Assembly: GCA_903913285.1 (NCBI GenBank)
Contig: CAIWKO010000004.1
Coordinates: forward strand, 1 to 64,000
DNA: 64,000 nt
Direction of reading: 5' to 3'
DNA from: an uncultured Bacteroidales bacterium
Lineage (GTDB): Bacteria > Bacteroidota > Bacteroidia > Bacteroidales > CAIWKO01
In this document: positions 5,439 through 14,449 of the stretch, piece by piece
Numbering within the stretch: position 1 is the first letter of the stretch
Layout of the letters: each line of letters begins with the position of its first letter
Notes under the pieces: generated by a model
The model's database searches: none
Seen by the model: the letters and a program-made list of their open reading frames with translations, nothing else
Told to the model about the DNA's origin: nothing
Program-made: the position numbers and the translations under genes

Positions 5439-8400
5439 CTAATACAAGTGGAACTTTTCCACATCGATAAGTTGTCGGTTGTCGTTCAATGAAAAAATGT
5501 ATTCGTTTTTCTTTTGCGATGGAGTTCCGTAATTTGAAAAGACCTGAACATTGATTGTGACAAGCTTTTTGGTGTCCTGTCTTCCTGAACCATAATAGTT
5601 AACCTGAATTTTGTAATCACCCTTTTCGGCATTCTTCATCAAAAATTCTTCAGGTCCGTAGCCTCTGGTATAATCCTGCGAAAGATATCCCCCGAATTTT
5701 GGATTCCGGTTGCTGTAGAAACATTTTTCACCATCCGGGCCTGTTACCCAAAGATCCATATCGGTATTGTCGGCATCCCAATTGATGACCACCCGCAAAT
5801 CAACAGGAAGGTTTTTTATCAATCGCTTATCAATCTTTGAAAGATCGATCTTGTCGCCAACCTGGTTTATAATGGCCCCCAGTTCACCTATCACGATCGA
5901 TTCAAAACCCGGAAACCTGCTGTCCCATTCTTTGGTCAGTATATTGTAGAGTATATCTACAGCTTCCTGATACTGACCGTTGTCATAATAAGCAAGTCCC
6001 AAATCCCTGTACGACTGAGGTTCTTCTGGTCTCAGTTTTAAAATGTCCTGATACTTTAATATGGCATATTCCTTTTCATGATTCTGCTGGAGTTTTCTGG
6101 CTAGAATCTTTGACAGTTCATGATTTGCCAGATCGATCTCCGCAAGATTCGATAAGATCTTTATTCCATACTTACGTTGTCCTGCCTTAAAACATGCATC
6201 CGAAAAATCAGCGTAAAAAGCAGATGATTCAATATATTCAGGCTTTAGCTTACAATATAAACTGTAAATGTTTTTGTTTGAAACTCCGTCCAGATCTTTT
6301 GCCCATGGAGCTGGCTCAGGCTTGGGATAATCGATCTTTTCATTATTTGTTGCAGCATTTCCTCCAGACCAGGAATAAGCATAATTTTCATTGCTTCTGT
6401 ATCCACGCGTAGTGATTGAAATAACACCTCCGGTTAGATCTCCGAATTGTGCAGGAATTCCTCCCGTATAGACCGTGATTTCATCGATAGAGGATCTGGG
6501 AACGTTATAATTTCCATTTACCCTGACACCGTCAACATAAACAGCATTAGCATTGCTTCGCGCACCGCGGAAATTAATTTCTTCCCCATTATCGGAAACA
6601 TTCAATCCCCCAATAGTGGAAATAATTTCATTGATTGATCTGCCTGCAACTCCTGTGATATCTGAAGAGTATATTGCATTTGAAGTGGTTTGATCCATTG
6701 AAATCAACGGGGAAGAGTATTCAATTACTTCAATTGTCGACAAATCAAATGAAGCTGGACTTAAAGGAATTTCAAAATTTGAAGATTCAGTAACCGATAT
6801 GGTAGCTGACTGATATCCCAGACTACTTATTTTTAGTTGGGAGTTAGCAGGAACGTTTATCGAAAAGTTCCCGTCAATATCTGAAGTTGACCCTGAGGAG
6901 TTGGCCGCATCCACAATTATAGCAAAGGGAATGGGTTCGCCGGTTTGTGAATCTACAATTTTGCCAACCACTGTTATACCTCCCGAATGATTGCCCGGAA
7001 TTGTCCTTATTGTCGTTTGATTCGGTGTCGGATTATTGGCAGTATGATTGTTGTTATTCGAAACAGGTGATTCAACAATTTCAGTTATCGTAGTTATATT
7101 AGGATTTGAGTTAATGTTTGTATTGCTTGTGCTGGTTTGATTTTTTCCATTCCACCAATTCACTTTCTGTTGATAAGCGTTTAATAGCTTATCAATTTTC
7201 TCACTGAATTTTGCTTCAACTTTAGTTTTTTTAAGTTTTAGTAATTCGTAATATTGATCTTGCATTTCAGGAGGAGGAACAATTTCGTAAAGAACATAAT
7301 CGGTGATGGAATCCAAAACAATCAGTGAAGTATTTCTGGTGACAATAGAATATTTTTTACCGGTTTGAGTGATCTCATTATCATTGTTTTTATAATCTTC
7401 TTGTAGGTCTTTAATCTTTTTTTGTGCCCAGATTCTTTCAACAATTCCATTAGTTGGTAACGTATCTTGTCGAATGAGTATTTCTTCCGAAGATGTAATT
7501 GTCTTGCCATAACCGAAATTGAGTTTAATTTTTGCTTCAGGTTTTTTTATAATCCCTGCAAAAGTGATATTACCACTGCACAAAACTGGTTTGGACGGGT
7601 AAACATCCTCAATGGCATTCTTATCGTATTCGGCTGAAATAAAACTTAAGTTCATGTTTGAGATGATGCCGATTGCTTCATCAGCACTTAATTTTGTGAG
7701 ATTGATATATTCTCCGGCCGTTTTATCGGCAATAAAATTCAAATATGAATGTTCAGCGTTGTTGGATGAATTGATGACAAAAACTGGTGTATTGGAAAGT
7801 TTAATTTCAGAATGTCCAAAATTGCTGACTCCGTCTGTGAATAAAAGTATTTCATCACAGGGATATTTATTGAAATCAAGGGCACCCAGTTGTGTACCAC
7901 CATCATAATATGTCTTTTTTAAGGTTGAAATAAGTTTATGGCAATTTCCCTGAATAATGTTGAAATTCATTACCGTATCTATTTCATTACTGAAAAGTAT
8001 AAGTTTAACATCCACATCGTTACATTTTTTCAAATACGATTGCAGCAGAGCGATCTCTTTACTGCTGTCACGTGAAGCTTCTGAAGCTGATTCGTCCCAA
8101 TAGATGCATATACTTTTAGGAAATTCTTTCGGAATGATCTGTTTTTGTTTAAAGATGTTGATATAGAAGAAGTCCCGATCATCAATTTTTCCTGATTGTG
8201 AATAAACAAAACTTTTTTTATGAGAAACAGGAATGAAAACTTCGAGATTGTCAGCAGAAATATAATTGTAGATAGTGAAATCAGCTTTGAAAGAAGTAAA
8301 TTCTTTATGGAATTTTAATTGTTTCCATGTTGTAGATTTTACGAAAGGGGTGTTTATTGTGTTAAAGACTTGAAAGCTCAATAGAAATGTATTTATAGGC

Positions 8401-8948
8401 ATGCTATATTCAAGAGGTATTTTATAGACATAAGAGGAGCTGTCTTCTAGCTTTAATTCCTGTTCGTATGCTATCACAATTCTTTTTGTCCCTTTGGAAG
8501 GAATAGGAAAAATTCTTGCTTTAAAATTATTACCGGGAGTCCATTCAAGCAGAGCAGGATCAATTCTTCTGCGAACAACAGCTTCAAAAACTTTTTGCCC
8601 TTTTTGTTTTTCAACCACAACACCTTCTCTCAATTTTCCTTTTAGTTCCATGGCAAAACGACTTACTGTTTGTCCTTCAGCCAATGGAAAAACCAATTCG
8701 CCTTCCAACTGCCTGCTAAAGTCATTGGAAAAGGTCATATCCATCGTTGTAACAGCGATGTTGTCGACAACTTCAACCTTTACATCGAATTTGTTTATTT
8801 TTAGTGGCACCGGCTTTCCTGTTTCCGGATTCGTTATCATTAATCGCGGACCAATAACTCTGGCACTGTCTTGAACCTGAGAATAAGAAATAATATACCA
8901 CAACTGAAATATTATGGTAAACAGAAATTTCATGTATTGTTTTTTCAT
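5439..8948 (-). CDS. Secreted VIT/vWA protein with carboxypeptidase-regulatory, TonB-plug-like, TPR and DUF2135 regions
   Basis: 1169 residues with an N-terminal signal peptide (MKKQYMKFLFTIIFQLWYIISYSQ). Domains in order: VIT (about 35-165); von Willebrand A (about 277-420) with an intact MIDAS (DESAS near 285, the Thr of GGTQLG near 352, and FTDG near 371); an Asn/Thr-rich linker; a carboxypeptidase-regulatory-like domain (about 656-725); a segment matching a TonB receptor plug (about 735-850, with INEIISTIGGLNV, NFRGARSNANAVYVDGVRV and FGDLTGGVISITT); TPR-like helices (about 900-1010); and a C-terminal DUF2135 domain (about 1040-1169, INWDADNTDMDLWVTGPDGE). No beta-barrel follows the plug. 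Start chosen at the ATG of MKKQ because it begins the signal peptide; upstream codons overlap the regulatory region. VIT-vWA proteins mediate adhesion or assembly elsewhere; the function here is unknown. Confidence 0.85.
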   Translation of the reverse strand: MKKQYMKFLFTIIFQLWYIISYSQVQDSARVIGPRLMITNPETGKPVPLKINKFDVKVEVVDNIAVTTMDMTFSNDFSRQLEGELVFPLAEGQTVSRFAMELKGKLREGVVVEKQKGQKVFEAVVRRRIDPALLEWTPGNNFKARIFPIPSKGTKRIVIAYEQELKLEDSSSYVYKIPLEYSMPINTFLLSFQVFNTINTPFVKSTTWKQLKFHKEFTSFKADFTIYNYISADNLEVFIPVSHKKSFVYSQSGKIDDRDFFYINIFKQKQIIPKEFPKSICIYWDESASEASRDSSKEIALLQSYLKKCNDVDVKLILFSNEIDTVMNFNIIQGNCHKLISTLKKTYYDGGTQLGALDFNKYPCDEILLFTDGVSNFGHSEIKLSNTPVFVINSSNNAEHSYLNFIADKTAGEYINLTKLSADEAIGIISNMNLSFISAEYDKNAIEDVYPSKPVLCSGNITFAGIIKKPEAKIKLNFGYGKTITSSEEILIRQDTLPTNGIVERIWAQKKIKDLQEDYKNNDNEITQTGKKYSIVTRNTSLIVLDSITDYVLYEIVPPPEMQDQYYELLKLKKTKVEAKFSEKIDKLLNAYQQKVNWWNGKNQTSTSNTNINSNPNITTITEIVESPVSNNNNHTANNPTPNQTTIRTIPGNHSGGITVVGKIVDSQTGEPIPFAIIVDAANSSGSTSDIDGNFSINVPANSQLKISSLGYQSATISVTESSNFEIPLSPASFDLSTIEVIEYSSPLISMDQTTSNAIYSSDITGVAGRSINEIISTIGGLNVSDNGEEINFRGARSNANAVYVDGVRVNGNYNVPRSSIDEITVYTGGIPAQFGDLTGGVISITTRGYRSNENYAYSWSGGNAATNNEKIDYPKPEPAPWAKDLDGVSNKNIYSLYCKLKPEYIESSAFYADFSDACFKAGQRKYGIKILSNLAEIDLANHELSKILARKLQQNHEKEYAILKYQDILKLRPEEPQSYRDLGLAYYDNGQYQEAVDILYNILTKEWDSRFPGFESIVIGELGAIINQVGDKIDLSKIDKRLIKNLPVDLRVVINWDADNTDMDLWVTGPDGEKCFYSNRNPKFGGYLSQDYTRGYGPEEFLMKNAEKGDYKIQVNYYGSGRQDTKKLVTINVQVFSNYGTPSQKKNEYIFSLNDNRQLIDVEKFHLY

Positions 8949-9188: not shown

Positions 9189-10277
9189 CTAACTATCTTT
9201 AATCATTTGATAATGACAACGCAAAACATCATTATTTTCAACATCACGTAGGTGAGTTCCATTGCCTCTGCACCATTTGAATTCTTTGCAATCGGCACAC
9301 ATCCCGACTTTTGCCCAGTTGCGGTCTCGCATGGGTTGGAACTTAGTATTCCACACATCGATAAAATCGTCTTTGTATATATTGCCTTGGGTGAAAGCTT
9401 CGCGGTTGATGTTGGGACAAGCACATATAGAACCATCAGCAAGCACCGATGCGATGTTGATGCCTGCACGACAAAAGAAAAAGCCATCGCGAACTTCGGA
9501 TTCATAATCACCAAGAAACCCTTCACAACCGAAACTTGTCTGTATGATTCCTTCTTCGCGATTTGATCTGATGAAATCAAGAACCTGACGGAATTGTTCA
9601 TTACTGATGCTTAACAATGGATTTTCTTTTGCTCTGCCAATTGGGCAAATGCTGAATATTCTCCATTTTTTCACACCCAGTTCAATCAGAAATTGTTTGA
9701 GAGCAGGAAGTTCATCAATGTTTCTCTGGTTCACACAGGTAACCACATCGTAAACGATTTCATCTCGTGCACTAATAGCAAGTTTAATGGCATTGACTGC
9801 TTTCTCGAAACTGTGTTTGTTGCCCCGCATCCAGTTATGACTTTCTTCAAATCCATCCAGACTGATGGTCATGGAGCGCAAGCCACTATTGAGCAGGTTT
9901 TTGAAACGTTCGGGAGTCAGAGCATATCCGTTGGTGACAAAGCCCCAGGGAAAACCCTGTTTGTAAAGTTCCATACCGCATTCTTCGAGATCTTTACGCA
10001 TCAGCGGTTCACCGCCGGTTATTACAATCATTACCTTGTTCGGATTGTAAACTTCGCGCACTTTGGCAGTTACTTTCAGAAAATCCTGATACGGCATGTC
10101 CTTTACCTGTGAATCGGAATGGCAATCGCTGCCGCAATGAATACAACTTATATTGCAGCGGAGCGTGCATTCCCAAAAAAAGTATGAGAGTTCATGCAGT
10201 TGCGATTGCACGTTCACATATTTACTGAAAACATTGAGCGCAACGCGCTTTCTGAATCCCGGGCGATAATTTTTCAC
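9189..10277 (-). CDS. Radical SAM/SPASM enzyme of the rSAM/lipoprotein type
   Basis: 362 residues. The radical SAM 4Fe-4S motif is CNISCIHC (Cys41, Cys45, Cys48), followed by GSDC, then the SAM-binding ITGGEPLMR. The C-terminal 100 residues hold a SPASM-type cysteine set (FFCRAG, SICACPN, MCADCKEFKWCRGN, LRCHY) for auxiliary clusters. Enzymes with this layout usually modify ribosomally made peptides or proteins. The N-terminus (WECTLRCNISCIHCGSDC) and the adjoining lipoprotein genes match, from memory, the Bacteroidota rSAM/lipoprotein pair described as TIGR04133/TIGR04134, whose chemistry is not established. It is the last gene of an apparent operon, 28 bases after the small YG-motif gene at 10306-10683. 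The likely substrates are its neighbours; this is inference. Confidence 0.85.
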   Translation of the reverse strand: MKNYRPGFRKRVALNVFSKYVNVQSQLHELSYFFWECTLRCNISCIHCGSDCHSDSQVKDMPYQDFLKVTAKVREVYNPNKVMIVITGGEPLMRKDLEECGMELYKQGFPWGFVTNGYALTPERFKNLLNSGLRSMTISLDGFEESHNWMRGNKHSFEKAVNAIKLAISARDEIVYDVVTCVNQRNIDELPALKQFLIELGVKKWRIFSICPIGRAKENPLLSISNEQFRQVLDFIRSNREEGIIQTSFGCEGFLGDYESEVRDGFFFCRAGINIASVLADGSICACPNINREAFTQGNIYKDDFIDVWNTKFQPMRDRNWAKVGMCADCKEFKWCRGNGTHLRDVENNDVLRCHYQMIKDS

Positions 10278-10305
10278 GTTGGTATATTAATATGCTTTTG
10301 AGGAA

Positions 10306-10683
10306 TTAATAAGTGTTTGGAAGAACGCCATATTTAGTGGCGGTATGATGTATAGGTATCCCATATTTTGTGACAGGATGTGCCGGTTTGTATATGTTAT
10401 TGTGTATTTTTTTTGCTTTTGCAATAGAATCGGCTTTTGCAATAGAATCAACTTTTGCCTTTTCTTTCTGCATATGGGCTATTGAATCAGCCTTTGCTAT
10501 TTTTGTAATAGAATCGTACTGATGTTTGGTCTTAGCAACCGAATCGTTGATATGAGCTGTTTTGTCAGCCTGGTTGGGATTGTGGCAACGAGTGAGAAAC
10601 AACATGCTAACAGAACCGATGATGACCAATGTATAATAATAGTACCTTGATTTGCATTTCAGAAACGTTCTGCGAATTTTCAT
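10306..10683 (-). CDS. Small exported YG-motif protein, candidate radical SAM substrate (paralogue 1)
   Basis: 125 residues. The N-terminus is basic then hydrophobic (about 14-31) and ends in LTRC at Cys33; Arg at -1 makes this a poor lipobox, so it may be an anchor rather than a lipoprotein signal. Residues 45-95 are a charged low-complexity stalk built from DSIAKAD-like repeats. The last 21 residues carry two Tyr-Gly motifs, KYGIP (Tyr107) and KYGVL (Tyr118), 11 residues apart. It is a clear paralogue of the next gene upstream (10740-11132): same N-terminus, same CHNPNQ after the cysteine, same motif spacing. Possible -7 box TAAATTTG on the minus strand at 10701-10708. No known function; the context suggests a target of the radical SAM enzyme 28 bases downstream. 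Confidence 0.75.
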   Translation of the reverse strand: MKIRRTFLKCKSRYYYYTLVIIGSVSMLFLTRCHNPNQADKTAHINDSVAKTKHQYDSITKIAKADSIAHMQKEKAKVDSIAKADSIAKAKKIHNNIYKPAHPVTKYGIPIHHTATKYGVLPNTY

Positions 10684-10739
10684 AACAAATAAATTTGAAT
10701 CAAATTTACTATAGTTTAGACTACTTATTATCGGAAAGT

Positions 10740-11132
10740 TTAATTTTTATAAAAATTTCTTTGAATGCCATATTTCGTAGGGTAATCACCAGGTACAATT
10801 CCATAATCCACAATCGGTTTTATAGTTGGAATAAATTGATTTTGCTTCAGTCGTTTCTTTATTAATTTTTTCTTAGCATTTGAAATTGAATCGGCTTTAT
10901 GAGTGGAATCAATTTGTGCTAATTTTTTTTGTTCGACAATAGCTTCCGATTTGGCAACCGAATCCAAATGGTATTTTGCCTTTACTAATGATTCATTAAT
11001 GTTGGTTGTTATTTTTTCCTGATTGGGATTATGACAACGAGTTAGCAATATTATACTCACAGAACCAATTAAAACAAGTGTATAATAATAAAAGCACGAT
11101 TTGCATTTAAGAATTGTCCTGTGAATTTTCAT
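10740..11132 (-). CDS. Small exported YG-motif protein, candidate radical SAM substrate (paralogue 2)
   Basis: 130 residues. The N-terminal MKIHRTILKCKSC is followed by a hydrophobic helix (about 15-30) and LTRCHNPNQ with Cys33, nearly identical to paralogue 1. A Lys/Ala/Ser/Asp-rich stalk follows. The C-terminus has two Tyr-Gly motifs, DYGIV (Tyr110) and KYGIQ (Tyr121), again 11 residues apart, although the residues between them differ from paralogue 1. It starts 3 bases after the stop of the lipoprotein gene at 11136-11585, so translation is probably coupled. The conservation of the hydrophobic segment and motif pair with drift of the stalk suggests those are the working parts. Function unknown. 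Confidence 0.75.
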   Translation of the reverse strand: MKIHRTILKCKSCFYYYTLVLIGSVSIILLTRCHNPNQEKITTNINESLVKAKYHLDSVAKSEAIVEQKKLAQIDSTHKADSISNAKKKLIKKRLKQNQFIPTIKPIVDYGIVPGDYPTKYGIQRNFYKN

Positions 11133-11135
11133 AGA

Positions 11136-11585
11136 TCAAGGTTTTCTTTGAAGAGATACATCTGCTAAATGATCCATATTATTAATATCTCTGAAGCTCA
11201 CATCAACTTCGATGTTTTTCGATAAAAAACTTCCGTTTAGTGTGCTGTCTACATCATAAAAGATCATTTTGACCTTTTGATTTTCGAAGGTATATTTATG
11301 GGCAGAGTAAATTCCTTGTGCATTTGTTGCAGTATAAACTGTGTCGTCGACATCGGAATAAAGCTTCACCTTTATATTAGGAATTGGTTTAAGAGAATCG
11401 GCCGATAAGACACTTCCATGAAAATCAACCGTATTCACAGAGTAAGGAACACCATATTCGGCAATCGGTTCACCGTATTTGTTACAGGACATTAAGAACC
11501 CAAATCCGGCGAGTCCCATCACCCAAAGAGTTTTCTTTAAGGTCGCAGAACGAAATCGTAGCACAGATCTTTTGAAGTTATACAT
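11136..11585 (-). CDS. Putative lipoprotein of the rSAM/lipoprotein system
   Basis: 149 residues. The signal ends in a good lipobox, GFLMSC, with lipidated Cys34. Directly after it come two Tyr-Gly motifs, NKYGEP (Tyr37) and AEYGVP (Tyr44), and then a carboxypeptidase-regulatory-like beta domain (FHGSVLSADSLKPIPNIKVKLYSDVDD...TNAQGIYS). A lipobox, a YGxP motif and a small beta-sandwich form the architecture I recall for TIGR04134 lipoproteins paired with a radical SAM enzyme in Bacteroidota. The motif is N-terminal here but C-terminal in the two smaller paralogues. Likely anchored by lipid in the outer or inner membrane; role unknown. Confidence 0.8.
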   Translation of the reverse strand: MYNFKRSVLRFRSATLKKTLWVMGLAGFGFLMSCNKYGEPIAEYGVPYSVNTVDFHGSVLSADSLKPIPNIKVKLYSDVDDTVYTATNAQGIYSAHKYTFENQKVKMIFYDVDSTLNGSFLSKNIEVDVSFRDINNMDHLADVSLQRKP

Positions 11586-11669
11586 GGCTCAATTTTTATA
11601 TTTGATAATTTCTAAAGCAAAAAGATTAATACTAAGGAATTAAATCAGCAAAAATTATGCCTTAAATAG

Positions 11670-12134
11670 TCATTTACAAGGGGTGTCTTGCTTAGATTTC
11701 ATTCCCATATAGTATATGGTTTTGCTGTCGTAATAATTGTCCCAACTTCCCTTCTTTGTTAAAATAAAATCATCGTTATTGAGATTAATTGTCTGCCTGG
11801 CAGGTAAAAATTCACCGTTGTTTACTTTACCGTCAATATCTTCTGCGGTGATTTCGAATTTATCGGAACTACTCATCATACTTGTTATCAGCATCAGAGA
11901 AAAATTACCTTTTTCATCCGTATAAGCTGAATCGTACACATTTTTGCCATAATTATCCGTAACATTCAGTTTTACTTTGATCTTAGGAACAGGATTTTTG
12001 CACTTTTCTGAAATGACATTTCCTTTTAAGGAATAATGATTTTCAACGATACCGTATTGTGCAGCAGCAGTTCCTGAAAAACCAAAAATAAATGCTACGA
12101 TCGTAAAAAAGAATTTGTTGAATTTTAATTTCAT
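11670..12134 (-). CDS. Secreted beta-domain protein with N-terminal YG motif
   Basis: 154 residues. Start set at the ATG of MKLKFNK because this begins a signal peptide ending GTAAA before Gln26; longer versions add an unlikely extension into the upstream gene. The mature protein begins QYGIVENHYSLKGNV, so a Tyr-Gly motif (Tyr27) sits at the very N-terminus. A carboxypeptidase-regulatory-like domain follows (KIKVKLNVTDNYGKNVYDSAYTDEKGNFSLML). It resembles the adjacent lipoprotein in layout but lacks a lipobox cysteine. It begins 31 bases after the DUF2400 gene stop and ends 84 bases before the lipoprotein start, which places it first among the four YG proteins of the cassette. Function unknown. 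Confidence 0.75.
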   Translation of the reverse strand: MKLKFNKFFFTIVAFIFGFSGTAAAQYGIVENHYSLKGNVISEKCKNPVPKIKVKLNVTDNYGKNVYDSAYTDEKGNFSLMLITSMMSSSDKFEITAEDIDGKVNNGEFLPARQTINLNNDDFILTKKGSWDNYYDSKTIYYMGMKSKQDTPCK

Positions 12135-12943: not shown

Positions 12944-14449
12944 TTATTGGGATTCTTTTTCGCCGAAAACAACCGCTGTATAAATATAAATATCGGCATC
13001 TTTCCAACCGTTCCATCCGATACCTGCCTTATCTTCAGCGCAGTGTCCCAGAAACTCATTTTTGGTCCAACCTGTTTGTGTGGCTACTTGTGGTAAAAAT
13101 GTACCGCTGTAGTTTCCCTTAATAATATAGATACCATGCTTCCCTAATTCAATTTCATCAATCGATTGTATTTTTTTTAGCGGTGAAAGTACCGATATCT
13201 CAATATCAATCTGATCGAGTTCATCTGAAGAGACTCTTTGAAACCGTGTATCCTCTGTTGCTGAAGCTTTGGCTATGTCCTGAACAATTTGGTACAAAGG
13301 TTTTTTTGCAGTAAATTGTCCAATACAACCTCGCAGGTCACCTTTTTTATGCAAAGAAACAAATGCTCCGCAGTATTGTTTTATTGTCTCAGATAACTTT
13401 GCAGAATCAATAGTAGGTGTGACCCCTGTTCTAATGAATTCATTCAGGGTGTTTCGTGCAATAAGCAACAGATCTTTTTTATTGGTTTTGCTTAAAGTAA
13501 ATTCAGTGTTTTTAGTTTTATTTTGAGTAATTACTATTGAATTATAACCGACAACCCGCGATGAATCGCCATAGGCAGGAGTATCACCTGAATTTTTATA
13601 TTTCAGAACTTTGATATTGATGTCTTTTATTTTTTCGGTAATATAAAGCATGGTAAGAACTGAGGTCCATCCGCATAAACTTGTTAATAAGTTTGGAATA
13701 TTCAGTTTCGTATTCGATTTAATAGTTTTTAGTAGTGCGGAGGTAGAATTACTTTGTATCGCGTCAGAAGTTAGTTTGTCAACTTTTACTGCATCGGCGT
13801 ATTTGGGATAATGCGAAAAATCGCTGCTGATAACGAAAAGGTTATCCGAATTAAAATACGGTGCCATAACATCTGCAATTTTCTCACAGGTTTCTGCATC
13901 ATCAGTACCTAGTATTATTGGTACTATTCGAAAAGGTTTTTTCATATGATATTGAAGGAAAGGAAGCTGAACTTCAATGCTATGTTCCAATCGGTGGGCT
14001 TCATTATACTTTATAAAAACACTGCCAGTATTCAGAAGCTTTCTTCCTAGAGATGTATCAACCTCAACAACTCCAAGCGGAGTGATAAAATTGCCATCAA
14101 TAAAAATGGCTGCACCGTTAAAGTATTCCCGATGGCTGGAGCCGATAACAAAAATATCGGTATATTCTTTATCGGCATCGATTTGATTGAAACTGCATGC
14201 TGCAACTTCTCCTGAGAAAATATAGCCGGCATGTGGTGAAATTATTGCCAAAACATTTTTACTTTGATTTGGAACTGCTTTTGAAAAAAGTTTTTTCAGA
14301 TTATTCACTAATGTGAGTGAATCTGCAGCATAAAACTGACCGGCGACGGCAGCCGGCCGGTCGTTTGGACTAGATTTATTATTCTGCGAATTACAACTTT
14401 CAGACATAATCAATAGATTTATTATTATGATGGTCAATAACCGATTCAT
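12944..14449 (-). CDS. Exported AmmeMemoRadiSam protein B-A fusion (Memo + AMMECR1)
   Basis: 501 residues, two domains. Residues about 30-300 are a Memo-like (AmmeMemoRadiSam B) domain: DRPAAVAGQFYAAD, ISPHAGYIFSGEVAACSF, GSSHREYFNGAAI, HSIEVQLPFLQ, VISSDFSHY. Residues about 320-501 are an AMMECR1 (A) domain: GAFVSLHKKGDLRGCIG and FLPQVATQTGWTKNEFLGHCAEDKAGI. The N-terminus is hydrophobic and ends in SESCNSQNNKS, which looks like a Bacteroidota lipoprotein signal, though the lipobox is imperfect. The third family partner, the radical SAM enzyme AmrS, is not in the window. A -7 box TAACTTTG lies on the minus strand at 14466-14473, so this is probably the first gene of the operon that ends with a different radical SAM enzyme. 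Confidence 0.88.
   Translation of the reverse strand: MNRLLTIIIINLLIMSESCNSQNNKSSPNDRPAAVAGQFYAADSLTLVNNLKKLFSKAVPNQSKNVLAIISPHAGYIFSGEVAACSFNQIDADKEYTDIFVIGSSHREYFNGAAIFIDGNFITPLGVVEVDTSLGRKLLNTGSVFIKYNEAHRLEHSIEVQLPFLQYHMKKPFRIVPIILGTDDAETCEKIADVMAPYFNSDNLFVISSDFSHYPKYADAVKVDKLTSDAIQSNSTSALLKTIKSNTKLNIPNLLTSLCGWTSVLTMLYITEKIKDINIKVLKYKNSGDTPAYGDSSRVVGYNSIVITQNKTKNTEFTLSKTNKKDLLLIARNTLNEFIRTGVTPTIDSAKLSETIKQYCGAFVSLHKKGDLRGCIGQFTAKKPLYQIVQDIAKASATEDTRFQRVSSDELDQIDIEISVLSPLKKIQSIDEIELGKHGIYIIKGNYSGTFLPQVATQTGWTKNEFLGHCAEDKAGIGWNGWKDADIYIYTAVVFGEKESQ

Follow-up and report, generated by a model that had tools for sequence, protein, structure and literature searches.

Positions 9,189 to 12,134 of the DNA stretch analysed here (the window; 64,000 nucleotides of contig CAIWKO010000004.1 from an uncultured Bacteroidales bacterium) carry on the minus strand the gene for a radical S-adenosylmethionine (SAM) enzyme with a SPASM domain and, upstream of it, four genes for small proteins of exported type, each having one or two Tyr-Gly (YG) motifs. 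The question raised by this locus is whether the enzyme acts on these proteins and which part the motif plays in the reaction. An earlier note on this DNA had taken YG to be either the modification site or a recognition element, and this view is supported, since YG is kept while the surrounding fold, length, and position vary. It is the tag, rather than a fold, that travels with the enzyme family. The chances appear to us about even that the locus represents motif-directed protein modification, in which a leader-free, splicease-like maturase would act on surface proteins before their export.

The enzyme gene (9189-10277, minus strand, GTG start) codes for 362 amino acids. Its product matches the TIGR04133 profile with 547.6 bits over model positions 1-349 of 350 (curated cut-off 425) and is thus a member of that family, for which we propose a splicease-like maturase function. 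The CX3CX2C motif consists of Cys41/45/48, and the Radical_SAM and SPASM domains cover residues 37-197 and 269-331; sequence and domain profiles therefore confirm the SPASM radical SAM enzyme described in the earlier note. The AlphaFold2 model (predicted local distance difference test, pLDDT, 92.1) has a peptide-maturase fold, with fold matches to SuiB (5v1s, Z 26.4), the anaerobic sulfatase-maturating enzyme anSME (4k38, Z 25.7), and a sactipeptide/thioether enzyme (5why, Z 25.7). A solved structure named as a splicease was found neither among the sequence matches of this enzyme or of a Nostoc enzyme (see below) nor among the 50 rows listed for the fold comparison.

The four upstream proteins have 125, 130, 149, and 154 residues, and the gaps between the genes, counted outward from the enzyme, are 28, 56, 3, and 84 bases. 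Their common direction and all seven listed Tyr-Gly motifs were found as the earlier note had them; "exported" is here a judgement from hydrophobic N-termini. Protein 1 (10306-10683, minus strand) has a Lys/Ala/Asp-rich stalk and two C-terminal motifs, KYGIP (Tyr107-Gly108, 10360-10365) and KYGVL (Tyr118-Gly119, 10327-10332). Its paralogue, protein 2 (10740-11132, minus strand), likewise ends in two motifs, DYGIV (Tyr110-Gly111, 10800-10805) and KYGIQ (Tyr121-Gly122, 10767-10772); the two proteins share 55% identity, their N-terminal 38 residues and YG tails being alike and their middle parts diverged. In protein 3 (11136-11585, minus strand), KYGEP (Tyr37-Gly38, 11472-11477) and EYGVP (Tyr44-Gly45, 11451-11456) directly follow a lipobox-like Cys34. 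Protein 4 (11670-12134, minus strand) has a single motif, QYGIV (Tyr27-Gly28, 12051-12056), as part of AAAQYG after the signal peptide, followed by a transthyretin-like beta sandwich. The residue preceding Tyr (Xaa) is, in this order, Lys, Lys, Asp, Lys, Lys, Glu, and Gln, all motifs being read on the minus strand. An eighth YG (NYGKN, Tyr62 of protein 4) is located within the beta domain and is not motif-like.

The earlier note had mentioned a pairing of TIGR04133 enzymes with TIGR04134 lipoproteins, two families which NCBIfam lists as hypothetical equivalogs with names that state no chemistry. A hidden Markov model search upheld this pairing for the enzyme and for proteins 3 and 4, which pass the TIGR04134 cut-off of 39.8 bits with 53.4 and 57.8 bits; these three therefore belong to the two families. 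It did not hold for proteins 1 and 2, which gave no hit to TIGR04134 even with E values up to 1 allowed and matched no NCBIfam family above cut-off. A good lipobox-like sequence (LMSC) is present only in protein 3; proteins 1 and 2 have an atypical LTRC instead, and protein 4 has an AAA/Q-type cleavage site without an early Cys.

For comparison, 77 distinct enzymes were collected from GTDB contigs, genomes of the phylum and the order, and plasmid records. The neighbourhood counts cover 74 loci, three enzymes with less than 38% identity (L107, L112, and L113) being excluded, and the plasmid members L116-L118 (49%-59% identity) were retained by hand. The positional test was made on the 70 loci with at least 400 bases upstream of the enzyme, L018, L019, L092, and L109 being set aside as shorter. 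The loci are non-independent samples, and several pairs are closely related.

The co-occurrence of motif and enzyme for which the earlier note had suggested a neighbourhood survey is clearly seen. In 61/70 loci, a same-strand open reading frame (ORF) with the pattern YGxP lies in the stretch from 2.6 kb upstream to 0.4 kb downstream of the enzyme, compared to 5/70 on the opposite strand of the same stretch and 5/47 at 2.6-5.6 kb upstream. Among small ORFs of exported type, YGxP is found in 72 of the 174 which adjoin the enzyme versus 7 of the 604 elsewhere in the same loci (Fisher p 1.4e-44); plain YG is less telling (104/174 versus 137/604). At four further loci, the YG protein lacks this Pro; it is encoded upstream (L058, L078) or downstream (L073, L105) of the enzyme. 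As to the distant enzymes left out of the counts, a CYGVP protein is encoded upstream of L107, and none was found for L112 and L113.

TIGR04134-like ORFs form a cluster present in 47/74 loci; it comprises 53 ORFs, all on the strand of the enzyme, and YG is found in 52 of them. The system extends beyond Bacteroidota, because the Treponema saccharophilum plasmid pTS1 (L118, 3613-5089) carries a CYGMP lipoprotein together with a TIGR04133 enzyme. The earlier note had further seen the locus as an expansion from one substrate to four. Four YG proteins are indeed present here, but such an arrangement is not exceptional: of the 62 loci with YG neighbours, 36 have a single one and the other 26 at least two, up to six in Marinifilum (L009), and further TIGR04134 copies occur away from the enzyme locus. 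The count per locus is a loose one in which any YG in an exported-type ORF was accepted, so that a few of these neighbours are due to chance.

These copies were analysed in 198 genomes of the order, using E up to 1e-60 for TIGR04133 and E up to 1e-6 for TIGR04134. TIGR04133 was detected in 46 genomes (41 over cut-off) and TIGR04134 in 29 (24 over cut-off), 27 of which also have TIGR04133 (Fisher p 9e-19). The 19/46 enzyme-bearing genomes without a TIGR04134 match would be expected if the tag can also be borne by other proteins. In enzyme-bearing genomes, YG near the presumed mature N-terminus is retained in 12/13 TIGR04134 copies which are not on the enzyme's contig, and was lost in L180; this reading is limited by draft assemblies, in which an enzyme may hide beyond the contig end. 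Two genomes are positive for TIGR04134 and enzyme-less: in one (G416), CYGTP is found close to where a 10-kb contig ends, while the match in the other (G479) is weak (31 bits) and lacks YG.

The genome from which the window derives codes for one such protein on another contig (C60; L145, 1483-2343). This distant TIGR04134-like protein of 286 residues has IVAQYG, IVAQYGAIQNNY after the signal peptide and ends in a sorting tail of the type IX secretion system (T9SS; Por_Secre_tail, 28.7 bits, cut-off 27). Because of this distant YG copy, the window enzyme may serve at least five proteins. DNA matches to Ala-Gln-Tyr-Gly number 30 in this genome versus 12 for the reversed pattern; five of them passed a crude signal-peptide test, and among these five only protein 4 and the C60 protein combine, by eye, a signal peptide, the AQYG tag, and a domain.

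The tag is carried not only by TIGR04134-like proteins but also by proteins of 53-130 residues, in which it is placed past the middle of the chain or at its C-terminal end. In two Fibrobacterota loci (L013, L014), a Ser-rich lipoprotein-like protein of ca. 346 residues is encoded about 1 kb upstream of the enzyme and has four Xaa-Tyr-Gly units, which CYRCP repeats and Ser linkers keep apart. Among 94 distinct YGxP windows, where Tyr, Gly, and Pro at +3 are imposed by the search pattern and are not a result, Xaa is Cys (24), Glu (18), Lys (17), Met (11), Leu (7), Val (5), Gln (4), Ala (3), Asp (2), Asn (2), or Ile (1). Position +2 is chiefly Thr (37), Val (13), Ser (9), or Ala (7), and an aromatic residue is found at +7 in 43/92 windows. 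An alignment of 15 TIGR04134-type proteins, in which Pro was not selected for, has Tyr and Gly among its eight invariant columns; ahead of the TIGR04134 domain, only Tyr, Gly, and Met1 are invariant. From these sequences, the tag consensus would roughly be Xaa-Tyr-Gly-(Thr/Val/Ser/Ala)-Pro-x-x-x-(Tyr/Phe).

Enzymes of family TIGR04103, which we take to be IPR026482 and the PlpX family, provide the link to a known chemistry. PlpX, a SPASM radical SAM enzyme, is described as excising tyramine from Xaa-Tyr-Gly and leaving an alpha-keto amide (PMC11002830); MYG and LYG are given as the natural sites of PlpXY, and the published tags include PIRPLYGLPI (PMC10533398). A first phylogenetic tree had very long branches, and six such rows as well as L112 and L113 were dropped from two later trees, neither of which contained a characterised splicease. 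TIGR04133 enzymes are found on one side of the tree together with TIGR04103, TIGR03913, and Agathobacter-type enzymes (support 97/88). TIGR04133 and the splicease-type rows have seven columns in common (G49, S50, S156, T180, W205, G253, and I300), which are seldom seen in ten outgroup rows. Among the plasmid matches of the window enzyme that were listed out of 351 records, the best ones outside TIGR04133 by E-value are enzymes from Agathobacter (5e-35), Aureibacter (4e-29), and Nostoc (4e-28).

Enzymes in this clade have Tyr-Gly precursors beside them (ALYGLPPELF, VMYGTG, and repeated KYGYPC). The Nostoc enzyme (TIGR04103, 853 bits) has on its one side a Nif11 precursor ending in SIALYGLPPELF and on the other a protein of 71 residues; this agrees with the plp layout, in which PlpX is accompanied by a precursor and a small RRE protein. 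A small ORF ending in GPVMYGTGVRM precedes the enzyme of Agathobacter. Three genomes from one genus of the window's order (L138, 3928-6059; L141; L142) code for TIGR04103-like enzymes with 218-221 bits (below cut-off), each followed by a protein of more than 200 residues in which a (K/L)YGYP unit, in most cases with Cys next, is repeated six or seven times. These repeat proteins did not match any NCBIfam family, and a tblastn search of plasmids for relatives of the KYGYPC protein and of protein 3 gave no match.

Nif11 or nitrile-hydratase leaders were not matched by any of the four YG proteins, and an RRE domain was not seen in the window enzyme. Among the 74 loci, we found no recurrent non-YG neighbour of at least 50 residues that would supply an RRE; a partner below 50 residues or a non-recurrent one would escape this analysis. 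A PqqD/RRE partner acting in trans was considered; the single PqqD match of the genome is on contig C45, away from the enzyme. Because no RRE was seen and the enzyme has a peptide-maturase fold, it probably reads the tag itself, much as anSME does with its own motif.

We propose the following course of events, of which the reaction, its timing before export, and its biological role are inferred. The TIGR04133 enzyme would bind the short Xaa-Tyr-Gly tag in unstructured tails of its substrates in the cytoplasm, and recognition would need neither a leader peptide nor an RRE partner. Tyramine splicing is proposed for the tag because of the splicease relationship of the enzyme: the tyrosine unit would be cut from the backbone, and a reactive group would remain on the protein. 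The modified proteins would then be exported and either be lipidated at Cys or cleaved by signal peptidase I, so that the group would be displayed at the cell surface, at a mature N-terminus or at the end of a stalk. Each site has its own Xaa (K, K, D, K, K, E, and Q in the window). Since it is the Xaa carbonyl that supplies the ketone in spliced products, Xaa would take the P1 position towards a protease that encounters them. Surface ketoamides reactive towards proteases are a possible use, and a panel of reactivities arising from the differing Xaa would be an attractive possibility. The beta-residues of splicease products are stated to give potent protease inhibition (PMC10373908, citing Scott et al.). 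A wider reading, which we put forward tentatively, is that TIGR04133 enzymes from Bacteroidota and some Fibrobacterota and Spirochaetota are leader-free spliceases of whole exported proteins, which at Xaa-Tyr-Gly would alter the peptide backbone of T9SS cargo and of lipoproteins at the surface. As paralogous substrates differ in Xaa, a single cell would then display ketoamides with a panel of P1 specificities, which might trap foreign proteases covalently or offer points for attachment.

Other explanations have to be weighed against such a maturase. That YG serves nothing but structure or export in lipoproteins which happen to be encoded beside the enzyme, with the enzyme's target elsewhere, is in our view very improbable. 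The motif could persist by descent within TIGR04134 alone, and direct proof of modification does not exist; but the two stalked proteins of the window, as well as short or Ser-rich proteins at other loci, carry the tag next to the enzyme though they are not TIGR04134-like. Relatives of the enzyme from the same clade have unrelated YG precursors, and the AlphaFold2 model of protein 4 places YG outside the folded domain, after the signal peptide and ahead of the transthyretin-like sandwich, where the confidence of the model is low. If the tag is accepted as relevant, YG might still be used for docking only, with epimerisation, thioether formation, or dehydrogenation at another nearby residue (the lipobox Cys, the alpha carbon of Gly, or the conserved aromatic residue at +7). 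We consider this unlikely: even though Cys is the commonest Xaa (24/94) and the +7 aromatic residue occurs in 43/92 windows, no other residue matches Tyr-Gly in constancy, given that Cys is missing as Xaa in 70/94 windows and the aromatic residue in 49/92, and five of the seven window sites are in proteins or tails without a Cys near the motif.

It strikes us as quite unlikely that Tyr is subject to another chemistry, such as formation of a three-residue, triceptide-like cyclophane or of another bond between the Tyr ring and residue +2. The spacing of Tyr-Gly-X would suit a three-residue cyclophane, a beta carbon is available at the second residue after Tyr in 7/7 window sites, and the fold of the enzyme is that of peptide maturases in general, as illustrated by its similarity to SuiB (Z 26.4). 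Yet the would-be attachment point is Gly in 3/94 strict windows and in KYGGL of L015 and L016, and a cyclophane leaves unexplained both the near-invariant Gly after Tyr and the tree grouping with splicease-type enzymes.

Splicing by the TIGR04133 enzyme has itself a number of observations weighing against it. Its score with TIGR04103 is 118.8 bits, far under the cut-off of 725, and on part of the sequence TIGR04053 (132.3 bits) and AhbD (123.9 bits) score higher. The tree grouping is also obtained with AhbD-like rows, which score below the AhbD cut-off, added and ten further TIGR04133 rows left out, but its support of 94/90 is not decisive, and for the tree without these AhbD-like rows the approximately unbiased (AU) test favours no one branching order of the three groups within the splicease-type clade. 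In the SPASM CX3C pair, Gly340 stands where the second Cys would be. A residue from the stretch linking the radical SAM domain to the SPASM domain, Cys251, does not vary across 22 rows, and the Agathobacter and L138 enzymes also have Cys at this place; it may substitute for the ligand lost at residue 340. PlpX works with PlpY, whereas no PlpY-like gene was seen at the window locus. At 5/70 loci (L023, L024, L057, L061, and L094) there is no convincing YG protein. In the DUF1843 peptides beside GDL-type relatives of the enzyme, Tyr is present in 8/8 but YG in only 4/8 at a comparable site, as judged by eye; hence this Gly is not shared by all members of the wider clade. To our knowledge, no modified product of a TIGR04133 system is known.

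The proposed system shares with the PlpXY spliceases a SPASM radical SAM enzyme, Xaa-Tyr-Gly sites (seven in the window), and, in the present trees, the grouping with a TIGR04103-type enzyme. It differs from them in having neither a Nif11 or nitrile-hydratase leader nor a PlpY-like neighbour, in its candidate substrates, which are whole exported proteins and not peptides, and in its TIGR04103 score (118.8 bits versus 725). anSME, to which the window enzyme is similar in fold (4k38, Z 25.7), is a leader-free SPASM enzyme that recognises a short motif in exported proteins and generates formylglycine at Cys or Ser of C/S-x-P-x-R; at TIGR04133 loci, by contrast, the constant part is Tyr-Gly. Triceptide maturases are SPASM enzymes acting on three-residue motifs which open with an aromatic residue; a difference is that Gly occupies the third motif position at some TIGR04133 sites. 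To the catalogued TIGR04133/TIGR04134 pair, the window adds two stalked candidate substrates with double C-terminal YG, and the same genome adds the distant T9SS-tailed copy.

In the collection of papers searched, no literature was retrieved under the names TIGR04133, TIGR04134, or "radical SAM-associated putative lipoprotein," and, to judge from titles and abstract openings, none of the papers listed for splicing and ketoamides in connection with Bacteroidetes and lipoproteins deals with a system of this kind. Scott et al. (2022; Chem 8:2659) are credited with 27 characterised and 939 predicted splicease systems and with protease-inhibitory products (PMC10533398, PMC10373908); their title says "peptides and proteins," and the set may already include the TIGR04133 family. 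If our proposal is true, backbone splicing would extend from small peptides to surface proteins, including those of gut Parabacteroides and Phocaeicola, and an enzyme that needs neither leader nor RRE and reads a short tag would be a simple tool to install ketoamides in proteins. The catalogued pair would gain a tie between its tag and the splicease tag.

The other neighbours of the enzyme were also inspected. Upstream of the operon, 12944-14449 is a lipoprotein-like gene in which AmmeMemoRadiSam proteins B and A are fused; it was rejected as a part of the system, being shared as a neighbour only with L005 in the clustering of the 74 loci. The same applies to the TIGR02757 gene, as TIGR02757-like genes occur in 4/74 loci, twice on the strand of the enzyme. 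After the YG proteins, the largest neighbour cluster consists of ABC ATPases (9/74 loci; 10 ORFs, 2 of them on the same strand). Downstream, on the strand of the enzyme, 5439-8948 codes for a 1169-residue protein with VIT, CarboxypepD_reg-like, TonB plug-like, TPR, and DUF2135 domains. Promoter-like sites (25 versus 20.9 expected) and terminator-like sites (8 versus 4.0 expected) were counted and not used as evidence. In the DUF1843 peptides of L120, L121, and L137, the contexts of the N-terminal Tyr are, by eye, LYG, PYG, MYM, LYA, and MYA; this Tyr, rather than the GDL motif, may be the true site in these peptides.

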